A DNA stretch of 64,000 bases from Akkermansia muciniphila. Lineage in GTDB: Bacteria > Verrucomicrobiota > Verrucomicrobiia > Verrucomicrobiales > Akkermansiaceae. Below are positions 22,370 to 31,115 of this stretch, piece by piece (position 1 is the first letter of the stretch; every line of letters starts with the position of its first letter). The position numbers were made by a program, and so were the translations under genes. Under the pieces are notes generated by a model. The model ran no database searches, was not told where the DNA came from, and was given only the letters and a program-made list of their open reading frames with translations. The stretch spans positions 124,001-188,000 of the forward strand of contig CAMCIC010000003.1 of assembly GCA_945874895.1 (NCBI GenBank). Direction: 5' to 3'.

Positions 22370-24073
22370 TCACTTGACTTCCTGCCATTGTTGGATGTCT
22401 TGCCCTTTGACTTCATACCAACCGGGAAAACCACGCCAAGAGATCTTGCCGTTTTTATCGGTGGTGAGAGTAAGTTCCGTATGCCATTGGCGGTTCACCA
22501 GATCGACAAATGCCTGACCGCGCTTGCGGATGGTCCAGTCGCGATTCCAAGAAGCTGCCTGCGGTTTCCAGTGGGAGCCTTCCCAAAACCCCCAGAGCAT
22601 GAAGCCATGATAAGCGGGATGGCTGAAGGTGGCGATCATGGCATCGCGGGTGAAATCCGCCGCCAATGCCTCATCCGCCGTGGTGACCACATCAAACTCG
22701 GTAATGATTTGTTTCGGTGCAACGGTGGCAAAGCGATCGGTAGTGGCCAGCATTTCCATCGGAGATGGCAGGTAGCTTTCATCAAAGTGCGCCTGATTGC
22801 CGAGACCGGCGACTGGGTAACCCTCTGTTTTTAACGATTGAAGATACTTCAACGTGCCATCGCTCTGCGCACCGGGCCGAAAGATCTGATCTTCGTTGAT
22901 GAAAAAGGGCAAAGGGCTGAGTTGTCGGGCGAGATCGAACACCTCGCGATCGATGCGCTCCAACCCTTGGTGTGTTGTCAGAAGATCTGCACCAGCCCAG
23001 GCCACAGGATGGTTGATCACATCCCACTCGCAGACTCGGTTGCCGACAAAGTTCATGCGTTCCTTTGCGCTCTCAAGGAAATGTCCGCGCACCTGCTCTG
23101 CGGATTTTCCCTCCAAATTGTGCGGACGAGCCGTTTGCATCAGATAATGCCCACGAACGGCGATCTTTCGATCGGACAACCAAGTAAGCGCCTTGTCCAG
23201 TTGTTGATTGCGTTTTTGTTTTTGTGCCTCGCTCAGTTGAGGCGCCCAACCGTAATCCTTGAGATCGTTTTCAAATACTACCATGCTGAAGTATCGATCG
23301 ACGATGCGACGGAATTCTTCCCCATCGGCCGATGGGTCGAGCAGCCGGCTCGCGGGTACGGCTGAGCCGAAACCAAAAGCATGGCGGCGCAGGCTGAGAG
23401 TCACTTCGCGTTGGCGTAAAGGCTCGCCACGGGGATCGCGTAAGGTCAGGACACAATCTTTTTTTCGTGTTTCCTCGATTCGTTTCATGGCCTCAACACG
23501 CCATGGCGCATCGGTTTCACGGCCCTCGTAACTGCGGCGGATGCGTGGGAATTGGCTCACATCGGTATTGGGAGGATAGACCCAAGCATGAACGCTCGCC
23601 ACCTCCCAGTCCTGTTCTTGTTGTCCGCATAGCATGGCCAGTTGGAGTCGGTCAGTGGCAATGTCCTCCTGCGCCATCAGCAGAACCGGCAAGTCTTGCC
23701 ATTCAGTGTTGATGGGAACTTCCATCGAGCCTGTATAGGCGTTGTAAGGTGCTGCACCGAGTTGCCACTTTGCGATGAAGGCCGTGCGCTTCGGGGAGAT
23801 GGATCGACAACGAACGAGTGCCAGTAAGGGGCTGTTCTTGGCAATTTTTTTGGGGGCGGTTGCGGTCACCGAGCACTGTGCCACAAAAGGCCGGGATGTG
23901 TCGGCACGCGTCACGTGGATCTGCTGTTTTCCTTCACCGGTGCTTTGAGCTCGTCCATGCCCGGCAAAAACATGTGTGGTCAGTCCTTTGAGTTCCAGAA
24001 CCGTTCCTGCTGCGGGGATATCAATGGCCCATACGGGCGGTAAGCAGAATAGGAGAAATAAAAATGGTTTCAT
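22370..24073 (-). CDS. Secreted GH10-family protein (xylanase-like) with substituted acid/base residue
   Basis: A 567-residue exported protein with signal peptide MKPFLFLLFCLPPVWA. Residues about 20-180 form a beta-rich region of carbohydrate-binding type, and about 215-530 a glycoside hydrolase family 10 barrel (FGFGSAV, RGHYLMQT near the usual GH10 RGHTLVWH site, ITEFDV with the nucleophile Glu, FMLWGFWEGSHW). The acid/base position, normally WDVVNE, reads WDVINHP with His (codon CAT), so ordinary retaining xylanase activity is doubtful. It lies 114 bases downstream of a rhamnulokinase gene on the same strand, suggesting plant or algal polysaccharide use. Confidence 0.82.
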   Translation of the reverse strand: MKPFLFLLFCLPPVWAIDIPAAGTVLELKGLTTHVFAGHGRAQSTGEGKQQIHVTRADTSRPFVAQCSVTATAPKKIAKNSPLLALVRCRSISPKRTAFIAKWQLGAAPYNAYTGSMEVPINTEWQDLPVLLMAQEDIATDRLQLAMLCGQQEQDWEVASVHAWVYPPNTDVSQFPRIRRSYEGRETDAPWRVEAMKRIEETRKKDCVLTLRDPRGEPLRQREVTLSLRRHAFGFGSAVPASRLLDPSADGEEFRRIVDRYFSMVVFENDLKDYGWAPQLSEAQKQKRNQQLDKALTWLSDRKIAVRGHYLMQTARPHNLEGKSAEQVRGHFLESAKERMNFVGNRVCEWDVINHPVAWAGADLLTTHQGLERIDREVFDLARQLSPLPFFINEDQIFRPGAQSDGTLKYLQSLKTEGYPVAGLGNQAHFDESYLPSPMEMLATTDRFATVAPKQIITEFDVVTTADEALAADFTRDAMIATFSHPAYHGFMLWGFWEGSHWKPQAASWNRDWTIRKRGQAFVDLVNRQWHTELTLTTDKNGKISWRGFPGWYEVKGQDIQQWQEVK

Positions 24074-24187: not shown

Positions 24188-25669
24188 TTACGATTGTCCG
24201 ATGATGGTGCGGAAATGTTCGTAGGCCTGAGCCCATTCGGCGGTATCACAGGGCACAAAGGTCTTGAAATCGAACGAAGCTTTGATCAACTCGCGGGCTT
24301 CGACGATCGATGGCAGGTGTCCAGTGGCGATCATTTGGATCGCAATGTTGCCGCACGAAGTGGCTTCGACCGGGCCAGCGATCACCTCGATACCCAAAGC
24401 ATTGGCCGTGGCTTGAGTGAGGTGGCTGTTTTGAATACCGCCTCCGCCTACGTGCAATCGTGCGAATGTGGATCCGGTGAGATGGCAGATCTTGTCGTAG
24501 GTCACACGATATTTCAGCGCGATGGAATCGGTCGCGATACGTAGGATTTTGCCCTTCACTTGCGGCACGTTTTGACCTGTGACGCGGCAGTATTCCTGAA
24601 TTTTTTCGGGCATGTCGCCCGCAGTGGAAAAACTGGGGTGATCTGGATCAATGAAGGCGGTAAACGCCGGAGCTTCGATAGCGAGTTCCGCAAGTGCCGC
24701 GTAATCGAGATCCTCGCCGTCTATGGCCCACTGACGTTTGCACTCCTGAATCAACCACAGTCCTGAGATGTTTTTCAAAAATCGCACTGTTCCGGAGTGT
24801 CCCAGTTCGTTGCAAAATCCGGCATCAAATGCTGCTTCACTCGTGATTGGTTGATTGGTTTCCAAGCCCATGATGGACCAAGTTCCAGAGGAAAGCCAGA
24901 GGTTGTCTCCCTGGCTCATCGGGATGCCGGCCACGGCGGAGGCTGTGTCGTGACTGGCCGAGGCGATCACTGGAATGTCGGCCTTACCAATGTAGTCGGC
25001 CACCTCACTGCGGATCGGTCCAAGAATCGTACCGGGCTCCACCACGTTGCCAAATATCCGTCGAGGCAGATCAAGGGCATCGATGACCGGCCACGCCCAA
25101 TCGTTGCTGTGAGGATCGAAAAGCTGTGATGTGGAAGCCACGGTACGCTCGTTGGCCATCACACCAGTCAGCCAGTAAGCCAGTAGGTCAGGAATGAACA
25201 ACAGCCTTTCCGCTTGCTGCAGCGCGGGCGATTGGCGCAATTGTTCCGCCAGCAAATGCAGCGAGCTATTGTAAAAATTCGTGCGGACTCCCGTGTGCCG
25301 GAACACGGTGTGTTCATCGAGAAGTTCATGCATTTTTTCCGCCATTCCCTCGAAGCGAGAATCACGGTATTGGTGCGGCATGCCTAACAGACGTCCGTGA
25401 CCATCGAGCAAGCCAAAGTCGCAACCCCAGGTGTCGATGCCGATCGAGCAAATGCGATCGCCGTAAGTCGCCACCGCCTTGCGTAAGCCTTCGAGAATGT
25501 CACGATAGAGGCCAATGACGTTCCAGAAAGATCCACCCGGAAGGTCCGTGCCTGGATTGCCGAAACGATGGACCTCCTCGAGATAAAGCCGTTGCAAATC
25601 TGTTTTCGCTGCGATGATACGGCCGGAACCGGCCCCTAGGTCGATGGACAAGAATACTTTTTTCGGCAT
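24188..25669 (-). CDS. rhaB: Rhamnulokinase
   Basis: A 493-residue FGGY-family sugar kinase, best matched to RhaB, which phosphorylates L-rhamnulose. Visible signatures are the N-terminal phosphate loop LSIDLGAGSGR, IGIDTWGCDFGLLD, ASHDTASAVAG, LSSGTWSIMGLE, and the rhamnulokinase-type end HVGGGGIQNSHL..GPVEATSCGNIAIQ. No rhaA or rhaD lies nearby. The GH10 gene follows on the same strand. The gene starts 44 bases after the clpX stop on the same strand, so it may be read partly from the clpX transcript. Confidence 0.93.
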   Translation of the reverse strand: MPKKVFLSIDLGAGSGRIIAAKTDLQRLYLEEVHRFGNPGTDLPGGSFWNVIGLYRDILEGLRKAVATYGDRICSIGIDTWGCDFGLLDGHGRLLGMPHQYRDSRFEGMAEKMHELLDEHTVFRHTGVRTNFYNSSLHLLAEQLRQSPALQQAERLLFIPDLLAYWLTGVMANERTVASTSQLFDPHSNDWAWPVIDALDLPRRIFGNVVEPGTILGPIRSEVADYIGKADIPVIASASHDTASAVAGIPMSQGDNLWLSSGTWSIMGLETNQPITSEAAFDAGFCNELGHSGTVRFLKNISGLWLIQECKRQWAIDGEDLDYAALAELAIEAPAFTAFIDPDHPSFSTAGDMPEKIQEYCRVTGQNVPQVKGKILRIATDSIALKYRVTYDKICHLTGSTFARLHVGGGGIQNSHLTQATANALGIEVIAGPVEATSCGNIAIQMIATGHLPSIVEARELIKASFDFKTFVPCDTAEWAQAYEHFRTIIGQS

Positions 25670-26999: not shown

Positions 27000-27100
27000 G
27001 CAAGGATGTGGGATGTGCGCGATTTTTAAAGGTCGCGCATGACAATCACAAGAGCAATTCATGCCATCTCTGGGAAAAAAGCTGAGCCGTTCTTTTTTAG

Positions 27101-27124
27101 TTGCATATTTTGCCAAATAACCAA
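27101..27124. promoter_or_regulatory. Candidate ArsR operator
   Basis: Imperfect inverted repeat with arms TTGCATATTT (27101-27110) and AAATAACCAA (27115-27124), matching at 8 of 10 positions around a 4-base spacer TGCC. It lies 10 bases upstream of the proposed arsR GTG start and in the clpX-arsR divergent spacer. AT-rich dyads of this kind are typical ArsR targets; the assignment is inference. Confidence 0.42.
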
Positions 27125-27134
27125 GTATTGGGCT

Positions 27135-27449
27135 GTGTCAGCTTGTTCGCCCTATCAACCAATCAACAAAGCCGGGTTTCGCAGAGCGGCATCGGTGTTC
27201 AAAGCCTTGGGTCATCCTGCGAGGGTCATGATGGTGGAGGAGTTGTCTCGCGGGGAGCGATGCGTGGCGGATCTGACCGCCCTGGTGGGACTGGATATGT
27301 CCACGGTTTCCAACCATCTGTCCGTGCTTCGAGGCGTGGGCATCGTTGTGGATGATCGACGCGGCACGCAGGTATTTTACTCCCTTCGCAAATCCTGCCT
27401 GATGAATCTTTTCTGTTGTCTGGATGATTTTGACGAAGAAAAACGATAA
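27135..27449 (+). CDS. arsR: ArsR-family metalloregulator
   Basis: A 104-residue winged-helix repressor of the ArsR/SmtB family that should release DNA on binding As(III) or Sb(III). Seen are [15 protein letters not shown], the recognition helix [17 protein letters not shown] and the wing [12 protein letters not shown]. The classical CVC metal site is replaced by RCVADL. Further cysteines occur at the C-terminus ([12 protein letters not shown]), so the arsenic site is probably of a non-classical type. GTG at 27135 gives the normal length; an ATG at 27039 would run through the dyad repeat and add 32 unlikely residues. arsD starts 3 bases downstream. Confidence 0.85.
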
Positions 27450-27452
27450 ACA

Positions 27453-27782
27453 ATGATCACCCATCTCCAAGTATACGATCCCCCCATGTGTTGCTCTACC
27501 GGCATCTGTGGCACGAGCATAGATCCCGACTTGATCAATTTTGCAGCGATGCTTGCTCAGTTCACTCAGCGCGGAGTCAAGGTCGAGAGATACAATCTCG
27601 GTCAACAAGCGCTCGCTTTCGCTCAAAATTTCGCTGTGCAAGAAAAACTTCGCGCGGAGGGGGCAGATTGTCTTCCTCTCATTTACTGCGATGGCATTTT
27701 GCGTATGCAGGGTCGCTATCCCACGCAAGAGGAACGTCGTGAGTGGGTTAAGAATGCAGTGGGGAAGGAGAGTTCGGAATGA
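27453..27782 (+). CDS. arsD: Arsenic metallochaperone ArsD
   Basis: A 109-residue ArsD that passes As(III)/Sb(III) to the ArsA ATPase. The signature pair and third cysteine are present as PMCCSTGICG (Cys13, Cys14, Cys19). The rest follows the thioredoxin-like ArsD fold (VERYNLGQQALAF, LPLIYCDG). The C-terminal vicinal cysteine pairs of the E. coli plasmid protein are absent, as in many chromosomal ArsD. It overlaps arsA by 4 bases (ATGA). Confidence 0.94.
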   Translation: MITHLQVYDPPMCCSTGICGTSIDPDLINFAAMLAQFTQRGVKVERYNLGQQALAFAQNFAVQEKLRAEGADCLPLIYCDGILRMQGRYPTQEERREWVKNAVGKESSE

Positions 27783-29629
27783 AAGCCGACAAGAGCACGG
27801 ATGCCTCTTCTATGGATCAAGAAGCGAAGACGAGTGAGACGCCTGTGCTCCTTTCGCATTATCAACCAGATTCGGGCACGGCGACGCGGTATCTGTTTTT
27901 CACTGGCAAAGGTGGAGTAGGAAAAACTTCGTTATCTTGTGCCACCGCATTGCGTCTTGCTGAAGCGGGCAAGCGTGTGTTGTTAGTCAGTACCGATCCA
28001 GCATCGAACCTAGATGAGGTTCTAGAAACGAAACTTACGAATCATCCGACTCCGATCGCCGGCGCAAGTGGACTCGAGGCTTTGAACATCAATCCCGTGG
28101 AGGCAGCCGCGGCCTATCGGGAACGACTCATCGGACCGATGCGGGGGATCTTGCCAGAAAGCGCACTGCGGAGCATGGAAGAACAACTGTCAGGCTCGTG
28201 CACGATGGAAATTGCCGCTTTTGACGAGTTTGCAGGACTGATCGGTGATCTCGATTCGGTCGCCATGTATGATCATATCGTGTTCGATACCGCGCCCACG
28301 GGTCATACGCTGCGCTTGATGAGTTTAGCGAAAGCGTGGGATCAATTTCTCGATCATAATCAGAGTGGCACCTCTTGTCTCGGGCCACTCGCAGGTTTGG
28401 AAAAACAGCGCGCGATGTATGAGACTGCGGTCGCCACACTGGTCAATCCCCTACTTACGACTTTGGTGCTGGTGAGTCGACCACAACGGGCATCTTTGCG
28501 CGAGGCTCAGCGCACATCGTTGGAATTGCGACAACTGGGCGTATCGCGTCAAGAACTCGTGATCAACGGCGTGTTTCATACCGATTGTCCCGATGACCGC
28601 GTGGCTCAGGCGATGCAAGATCGCGGACGTAAGGCATTGGCAGACGCGGGTGACTTTCTGGCGAGCATGCCTCGTTTTTTTGTTCCGTTGAGAGCGGTCA
28701 ATATACTCGGTTTGGCGGGGCTGAGGCATTTGTTCGACGGAGACGCTTCCGTGGCGACGATCGAAATGGATTCCCGGTGGCAAGCTCCCGTGATGCTTTG
28801 CCTCAATACGGTCGTGGATGAACTGGAAAGAAAAGGCAAGGGCGTGATCATGACCATGGGCAAAGGTGGTGTGGGAAAAACTACGGTTGCGGCGGCGCTT
28901 GCTGTTGCATTGGCAAAGAGGGGACATGCGGTTCATCTCACTACGACCGATCCTGCAGCCCATCTGGCACAGACTCTTGATGGGTCATTGCCGGGGCTGA
29001 GTCTTAGCAGGATTGATCCGGTTGCTGAGACAGCAGCATACACCGCCACTGTGATCGCTGAGCAGGCAGCGCGTCTCGATGATGCGGCCCTTTCTTTGCT
29101 GAAAGAGGACCTGCGTTCACCATGCACGGAAGAGATTGCCGTATTTCGCGCTTTCGCCCGGGAAGTGGCGAGAGGCGAAAAAGGATTTGTTGTTTTGGAT
29201 ACCGCACCCACGGGACACACCTTGCTTTTGCTTGATGCCAGTGAGGCCTATCAACGCGAGTCAGAGCGGCAGGCGGGAACTTTTCAACCAGAAGAAGTGT
29301 TGCATTTGCTGCAGCGTTTGCGGGATCCGAATTTCACCTCGATGATCTTGGTGACACTGCCTGAGGCTACTCCCGTGCATGAAGCTGCCGATCTGCAAGA
29401 GGATCTACGGCGCGCTCAGATCGAGCCTTTTGCTTGGGTCATGAACCAAAGCTTGTATGGCTGCGATACATGTGATCCCTTGCTGAAGATGCGGCAGGAA
29501 TCCGAACGCCGTTACCTCAAGGAAGTCGCGGAGATTCATGCGCAACGCGTTGCTTGGTTGCCATGGCAAACACAGGAACCCGTGGGGGTCGCCGCTCTAA
29601 TCGCATTGTCTGCATCAATCCCATTATGA
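27779..29629 (+). CDS. arsA: Arsenite efflux pump ATPase ArsA
   Basis: A 616-residue two-domain ATPase that energises As(III)/Sb(III) export. Both halves have a P-loop ([12 protein letters not shown] near residue 42; [12 protein letters not shown] near 360) and the signal sequence DTAPTGHTL. The three metal-site cysteines are recognisable in [16 protein letters not shown] and RSPCTEEI. It has one of the few good Shine-Dalgarno sequences here, AAGGAG at 27765-27770, eight bases before the ATG, and it overlaps arsD by 4 bases. It overlaps the acr3 start by 4 bases. Confidence 0.96.
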
Positions 29630-30684
29630 CTGAATCGATCGCAAAAAACATGTCGTTTATCGACCGTTACCTGACGGTCTGGATTTTCGCTGCCATGGGC
29701 ATTGGCGTTTTGTTGGGAAATATGGTCCTAGATGATCCATCGGCCTTTTTCGCGCCCATGACAGTGGGAACCACCAATATCCCCTTAGCGATCGGACTGA
29801 TCGTCATGATGTATCCACCTCTTGCCAAAGTGCGCTATGCAGAAATGCCGAAGGTTTTTTCTAACAAAAAAATTCTTTCTCTCTCCTTGATTCAAAACTG
29901 GGTCATCGGGCCTGTTTTGATGTGGCTCCTGGCAGTGCTGTTTCTTCGCGATCAGCCTGAATACATGATCGGACTCATTCTCGTAGGCATCGCACGTTGC
30001 ATCGCGATGGTGCTGGTATGGAATCATTTGGCCAAGGGCAGCAGCGAGTATGCGGCGGGCTTGGTGGCATTGAATAGCATCGCACAAATTCTTTTTTACA
30101 GTGCCTATGCTTGGTTTTTCATCACCGTGTTGCCGCCTTACGTCGGGCTGAAAGGTGTGATCGTGCCCATTGCGATGTCGGACATTTTTCAGAGCGTTCT
30201 GATCTATCTGGGCATTCCCTTTGCCGCAGGTGTCTTGAGCCGAGTGATTTTGGTCAAGGCGAAAGGCGAGAAATGGTATGAGAGCATGTTCTTACCGAAA
30301 ATCGCGCCGCTGACCTTGATCGCGTTGCTTTTCACAATCGTGCTGATGTTTACCTACAAAGGCGATGCCATTGTGCGCCTGCCCATGGATGTGCTGCGCA
30401 TTGCGATTCCGCTCGTGATCTATTTTGCGGTCATGTTCCTAGTGAGCTTCGCCATGGCGGCCCGACTGGGATCGGACTATCCGCGCACGGCGAGCGTGGC
30501 CTTCACTTCCGCGGGCAACAATTTTGAGTTGGCGATCGCGGTGGCAATTGCGGTGTTCGGCCTCGACTCGGGTGTGGCTTTTGCCGCCGTGGTGGGTCCG
30601 CTGATCGAAGTGCCGGCCTTGATTGGCCTGGTGCATGTCTCGTTTTTTCTTCGTCGCAAATTCTTTTCTGCTGAAACTTTATGA
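29626..30684 (+). CDS. acr3: Acr3-family arsenite efflux permease
   Basis: A 352-residue membrane permease with about ten helices that exports arsenite. The Acr3 signature [13 protein letters not shown] (with its essential Cys) and the second signature [18 protein letters not shown] identify it as Acr3 (BART superfamily) rather than ArsB. The ATG at 29626 overlaps the arsA stop by 4 bases and gives the usual N-terminus; the longer frame is not needed. Pairing an Acr3 permease with ArsA and ArsD suggests ATP-driven export. The stop overlaps arsC by 4 bases. Confidence 0.95.
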
Positions 30685-31115
30685 AACCATTGATCTTAAT
30701 ACTCTGCACAGGAAATTCCTGTCGTTCTCATCTGGCGGAAGGTTTGTTGCGTCGGGCTCTAGGCAATGATTTTGTCGTCGCCAGCGCCGGATCGAATCCC
30801 GCAGGTTATGTGCATCCACTGGCGATCAGGGCGATGTCAGAAATCGGCATCGATCTCTCCACTCATCGTTCGAAGCATCTGAATGAATTTCTCGATCAAG
30901 AGGTCGAGACGGTCATCACCGTATGTGGCAATGCGGATCAAGCGTGTCCGATTTTTCCTGGACAAGTGAACCGTCATCATTGGGGATTCGATGATCCTGC
31001 TCACGCAACTGGAACGGAGGAGGAACAGATGCAGGTGTTCCGCCGCGTGCGCAATGAAATCGAACGGGTTTTTCTCGCCTATGCGGCGGGTCGAAGGGAT
31101 CAGCGCGCATCGTGA
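30681..31115 (+). CDS. arsC: Arsenate reductase, low-molecular-weight phosphatase type
   Basis: A 144-residue thioredoxin-coupled arsenate reductase. The catalytic P-loop is CTGNSCRS (Cys9), and the second redox cysteine pair is seen in [11 protein letters not shown]. The family block HHWGFDDPA follows. It reduces As(V) to As(III) for export by Acr3. It is the last gene of the arsenic operon, and its 3' end overlaps the convergent ribE by 16 bases, leaving no space for a terminator between them. Confidence 0.94.

Follow-up and report, generated by a model that had tools for sequence, protein, structure and literature searches.

The window analysed here, 64,000 nucleotides of an Akkermansia muciniphila contig, contains a GH10-type ORF at positions 22370..24073 of the minus strand. 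Its 567-aa product consists of a signal-like start, a CBM4-like β-sandwich and a GH10-type barrel in which His occupies the acid/base position; the translation of 22373-24073 (minus strand) includes CEWDVINHPVAWAG and KQIITEFDVV. Residues 1-16 (MKPFLFLLFCLPPVWA; 24026..24073, minus strand) were assigned by eye as a putative Sec signal peptide, and the protein is probably secreted, to judge from this sequence. The N-terminal β-sandwich (residues 17-180; 23534..24025, minus strand) was recognized as CBM4-like from an AlphaFold2 model (pLDDT 88.5, built from 5 sequences) and its structure matches, the best being CBM4-2 of a Rhodothermus marinus xylanase (Z 12.5) and the next CBM1 of BiXyn10A (Z 12.4), both at 10-12% identity. 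In a Pfam scan at E up to 0.001, PF00331 was the sole match to the 567-aa protein (84.5 bits against a curated cut-off of 22.1, residues 232-506); no GH3 model matched, and Pfam contains one. The full-length AlphaFold2 model (pLDDT 82, 6 sequences in the alignment, poor at 496-510) contains the GH10 barrel fold, with XynA of Bacillus sp. KW1 (7d88) as its best structure match (Z 33.8, rmsd 3.8, 348 aligned). By sequence family and by fold, the window protein belongs to GH10.

Directly upstream of the GH10 gene lies a rhamnulokinase-like FGGY kinase (24188-25669, minus strand), which scores 424.8 bits with TIGR02627, below the NCBIfam cut-off of 527.95. In the neighbourhoods compared across His-type loci, the 20 proteins that were scanned include two each of sulfatases and CotH-type proteins, one HtrA-like protease, one sugar transporter, one GH2-like protein and a number of housekeeping genes; three gave no match. 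An apparent arsenic-resistance cluster (ArsR, ArsD, ArsA, an ACR3-type pump and arsenate reductase), named from ORF reading alone, occupies 27039-31115 on the plus strand.

A histidine at the acid/base position

GH10 is among the best-studied glycosidase families, and to our knowledge its two-Glu mechanism is treated as fixed. In the window protein the canonical acid/base motif WDVxNE is absent and WDVINHP is found, with His355 (codon CAT; 23009..23011, minus strand) in place of the acid/base Glu, immediately after strand β4 (347-354 in the model). Alignments with XynA (7d88) and with its inactive E182A/E280A mutant (7d89) bring His355 and Glu459 onto both mutated residues; His355 is thus at the acid/base position itself, as the earlier note had stated, and not adjacent to it. 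Since the acid/base Glu is absent, we class the protein as a GH10-related variant and not as a canonical GH10 xylanase. The CAT codon differs from both GAA and GAG at two positions, and His is common to 86 of 195 non-redundant sequences (codon CAT in 44, CAC in 42), which rules out a read error or MAG artefact as its source; that a single read error was unlikely had already been argued from the codon. GH10 xylanases such as XynA (7d88), AcXyn10A (8b73) and the PF00331 family share with the window protein the barrel fold, the CBM-GH10 layout, the nucleophile Glu with its network, His309 and Asn354, whereas the window protein has His for the acid/base Glu, Glu for the Asp of the NDYN motif and Gln for Trp313.

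Relatives were gathered from one pattern-based scan of genome contigs (5 loci) and from whole-genome searches, in which matches were obtained in 88 of 387 genomes of the phylum (E up to 1e-10), 82 of 386 genomes of the order and 41 of 345 genomes of another class (both E up to 1e-40). The regions of many of these matches were read, with sampling weighted to the window's own order, and phyla beyond its own were covered by plasmid records and the pattern-based contig scan. From 223 hits, removal of identical or contained cores left 195 non-redundant sequences, one of them the window's own; the initial column counts left out the query, L002, L117, the short L035 fragment, L007 (a duplicate) and L032. 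Residue 355 is Glu in 105 sequences and His in 86; three have Ala or Gly, and one, the truncated L032, which falls within the His group on the FastTree tree, has no residue there. All but one of the 86 His-type proteins cover the whole site (L187 ends before 394). These 85 are distributed among families of the window's own order, the one searched most heavily (78 proteins), other classes of the phylum (six) and a Lentisphaerae MAG (one).

A GH10 match was found in 29 plasmid records, 16 of which were read; 13 are Glu-type and three, all haloarchaeal (Halorussus vallis and two Halocatena marina strains), are His-type. The three haloarchaeal proteins all have His355, Glu394 and Glu459, and all are annotated as endo-1,4-beta-xylanase. 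Automatic annotation labels such proteins as xylanases, and the swap would warn against inferring xylanase activity from family membership. Separately, the GH10 genes on Haliscomenobacter, Halocatena and Halomicrobium plasmids (L228, L230 and L233) are each split into two reading frames. The second piece of L233, a short one with His in column 355, was taken for a misaligned fragment. None of the 23 pattern matches on viral contigs encodes a relative. Three GH10-like proteins that cluster in the tree (L104, L110 and L113) have Glu at neither catalytic position (A/A, G/D and A/S at 355/459), a pattern that makes them possible pseudo-enzymes.

The nucleophile network and probable retention of catalysis

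The nucleophile region, described as intact in the earlier note, is preserved throughout the His-type group. The catalytic nucleophile Glu459 (GAG; 22697..22699, minus strand), located within KQIITEFDVV on strand β7 (454-463) and aligned with E280 of XynA, is invariant in all 85 covered His-type proteins. The same holds for His429 (22787..22789, minus strand), which we take to be the nucleophile partner in GH10, and for Asp461 (22691..22693, minus strand), presumably part of the nucleophile network, which is found in 76 of 105 Glu-type relatives. Altogether 18 columns are invariant across these 85 proteins, including His309, Asp351, His355, Asn393, Glu394, His429, Glu459, Asp461 and Trp494, and Asn354 is kept in 84. 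The residues that we take to be conserved in the GH10 catalytic site (K272, H309, N354, Q427, H429 and W494) are all present in the window protein; within the His-type group Q427 is replaced by Met in 13 proteins and K272 by Arg in 10. The invariance of the trio 355/394/459 partly reflects shared ancestry of the related proteins. Four residues past His309, the window protein has Gln313 (23135..23137, minus strand) at a position that is Trp in 95 of 105 Glu-type relatives; among the 85 His-type proteins 54 have Gln and 29 Trp. The sugar-binding wall of the window protein may therefore differ, Gln313 possibly marking its alteration.

The pattern of conservation bears on the option, offered by the earlier note, that the protein merely binds glycans. 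A non-catalytic pseudo-enzyme would be compatible with the missing acid/base Glu, the absence from the window protein of the Trp313 typical of Glu-type relatives, and the CBM-like domain that it carries. A binding protein would, however, have little reason to retain the nucleophile and its network, and these are kept in every covered His-type protein and in the three haloarchaeal proteins as well. Purifying selection is indicated by a median dN/dS of 0.083 at a median dS of 1.1 (60 pairs drawn from 223 close pairs), and the window's own genome has a separate canonical GH10 with WDVLNE and YNDF. For these reasons a pure binding protein is unlikely on the sequence evidence, and we hold it to be the least probable of the alternatives considered here. 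The three Ala/Gly355 relatives also carry no Glu at the nucleophile position (Ala, Ser or Asp), and with both catalytic Glu residues gone this degenerate pattern looks different from that of the His-type group. Because each complete His-type copy keeps the nucleophile Glu and the neighbouring Glu394, the swap is probably the sign of an active site that has been altered and still works, and not of a dead enzyme. At the L196 locus of one relative, a His-type and a Glu-type GH10 gene are near neighbours, separated by a GH2-like gene and a smaller ORF.

Glu394 and a candidate His-Glu pair

Glu394 (GAA; 22892..22894, minus strand), the last residue of strand β5 (390-394 in the model), is the proposed partner of His355 or its substitute as acid/base. 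All 85 covered His-type proteins have Glu at position 394, whereas among the 105 Glu-type relatives 64 have Asp, 40 Glu and one His (Fisher p 3e-23, a statistic that ignores relatedness); XynA, the closest solved GH10, has Asp at this position. Among the three options of the earlier note, this invariance gives best support to the use of another residue; the binding protein is poorly supported, the nucleophile and its network being invariant too, and a different reaction is a further possibility.

Acidic residues occur in at least 95% of His-type proteins at 14 columns of residues 185-556 (268, 349, 351, 377, 394, 446, 459, 461, 467, 468, 473, 477, 498 and 512). Column 394 was picked from these because it ends the strand neighbouring 355 and is always Glu in the His-type group. 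The next Glu in the sequence, Glu349, was not taken as a substitute acid/base, since it lies inside strand β4 in the model and 64 of the 105 Glu-type relatives also have an acidic residue (Glu or Asp) in that column; at column 498, Glu or Asp is likewise found in 82 of the 105. Greater uniformity in the His group is likewise seen at columns 461, 467, 468, 473 and 477, so that Glu394 does not stand alone in this respect.

We put at about 50% the probability that members of the clade are retaining glycosidases whose acid/base Glu has been replaced by a His355-Glu394 pair, a reading that draws on conservation, the structural model and analogous enzymes. According to this proposal, the conserved GH10-derived group would still cleave or transfer a β-glycoside by a two-step retaining mechanism, in which Glu459 would attack the sugar to form a covalent intermediate as in canonical GH10. 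His355 would take over the acid/base job as one half of a His-Glu dyad, positioned and tuned by Glu394, with which the adjacent strand β5 ends; in its protonated form it would give a proton to the leaving group, and in its neutral form it would then deprotonate the incoming water or sugar. Strands β4 and β5 are neighbouring in the barrel of the model, which makes a His355-Glu394 contact plausible. Catalysis with retention of configuration is what we infer for the His-type group as a whole.

The same observations could also be accommodated if Glu394 itself were the acid/base, the carboxylate having moved from β4 to β5, with His355 only shaping or charging the site. Its invariance in all 85 covered His-type proteins, its place at the end of the strand adjoining β4 in the model, and the additional methylene by which Glu exceeds the Asp of 64 of 105 Glu-type relatives would all suit this role. 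However, 40 of the 105 relatives have Glu394 together with Glu355, so that its role there is not that of the acid/base, and a His acting as a mere spacer would not need to be fixed group-wide, with the qualification that the group is partly defined by His355. We regard this relocation of the carboxylate as unlikely.

The His355-Glu394 pair is favoured because precedents exist in other glycosidases and in an engineered GH10. As described in passages of PMC11574756, a His with a carboxylate partner serves as the general acid in GH117, with support from simulation, and His acid catalysts with carboxylate partners have been proposed for GH3 NagZ and GH156. In the same passages, the NagZ-type N-acetylglucosaminidases of GH3 are retaining enzymes with a proposed His acid/base paired with Asp; they differ from the window protein in family and fold, and the partner here would be a Glu from the next strand. 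The 3,6-anhydro-L-galactosidases of GH117 use a His/Asp general-acid dyad according to that source, whereas their mechanism is inverting and their family separate. Within GH10, the titles of entries 5gqd and 5gqe indicate that crystal structures of the SoXyn10A mutant T82A/N127S/E128H captured both a covalent intermediate and a Michaelis complex. To go by those titles, this mutant, like the window protein, has His in the acid/base position of its GH10 barrel, which indicates that the GH10 fold accepts His there. The SoXyn10A mutant is man-made and carries two extra mutations, whereas in the His-type group Asn354 is retained and the swap is natural and conserved; the group would be the natural counterpart of the engineered enzyme. 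In the open-access literature searched, chiefly titles and abstract openings, we found no natural GH10 described with His in the acid/base role.

The engineered protein also lends itself to another explanation, namely that a glycosyl-enzyme forms and has no normal water-activating base, so that the sugar would pass to another acceptor (by transglycosylation or to an anionic nucleophile) or only activated or acidic leaving groups would be processed. It was, by the title of 5gqd, trapped as a covalent intermediate, and the title of a paper cited in PMC11574756 ties the His of GH3 N-acetylglucosaminidases to phosphorolysis. That mutant, however, also carried T82A and N127S, whereas Asn354 is kept in 84 of 85 His-type proteins, and the signal-like start of the window protein would make phosphorolysis improbable outside the cell. 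We consider this explanation quite unlikely, if less so than a protein that only binds.

Origin of the swap and gene neighbourhood

A mixture-model tree was built for 107 representatives with columns 355 and 394 excluded; 21 named loci were omitted (long-branch, distant, partial or near-copy) and the rest were thinned by identity. A branch with SH-aLRT 88 separates all 32 His rows from the remainder of this tree, and seven Glu355-Glu394 rows join them at 80. The position of these seven rows next to the His group suggests that Glu394 arose before His355. At least nine changes are needed at position 394 on the 107-row tree, which indicates that Glu394 is labile outside the His group, where it may serve some other role.

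The number of origins of His355 varied with the tree. FastTree applied to all 195 rows gave two changes of the His state, L025 being the one His row outside the main group; the 107-row mixture-model tree reunites L025 with the His group. Two further trees, one with 8 of 19 plasmid ORFs added and the other of 85 rows, included two haloarchaeal rows. The free trees with these rows require two changes, L025 and the haloarchaeal rows standing apart, and well-supported branches of the plasmid-ORF-enlarged tree force two changes. When the His rows were held together in the 85-row test, the likelihood was 8.5 log units higher, and one clade was not rejected (p-AU 0.72). A single origin of His355 is likely on these alignments, and Glu394 is present in all members seen, also if two origins are assumed. 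The NHP variant that the earlier note proposed to look for in GH10 alignments does form a group, both in its frequency among the 195 sequences and on the trees.

Taken further, these data raise the possibility of a natural, widespread GH10 branch that rebuilt its acid/base in two steps (Asp394 to Glu, then Glu355 to His), giving a working His-Glu pair in a family that otherwise has its acid/base Glu on β4, and possibly a turn to another, perhaps anionic, glycan or a preference for transfer over hydrolysis; we advance this fuller scenario tentatively. The Glu355-Glu394 relatives resemble the intermediate step, and stepwise rebuilding of a catalytic pair would with them become testable by mutagenesis.

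As to substrate, a β-1,4-linked glycan from plants or algae is suggested by the CBM4-like domain and by the family, and an acid/base with a neutral side chain would fit anionic substrates, whether uronic or sulfated. Across 56 His-type loci and the window (a few places being fetched twice), no gene family besides GH10 occurred in more than seven loci. The rhamnulokinase-like family recurs only in one near relative (L003 and L213, with the same gene order), and no RhaA match was found in the window's own genome; the true substrate of the kinase may differ. A connection with rhamnose, which the earlier note had entertained, accordingly has little in its favour beyond this one adjacent gene. The sulfatase family was encountered in 6 of the compared loci, and the sulfatase neighbours were counted as background because the window's own genome (2.9 Mb) alone has 35 sulfatase matches. 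The same genome also has two PF17389 (GH78-type) matches.
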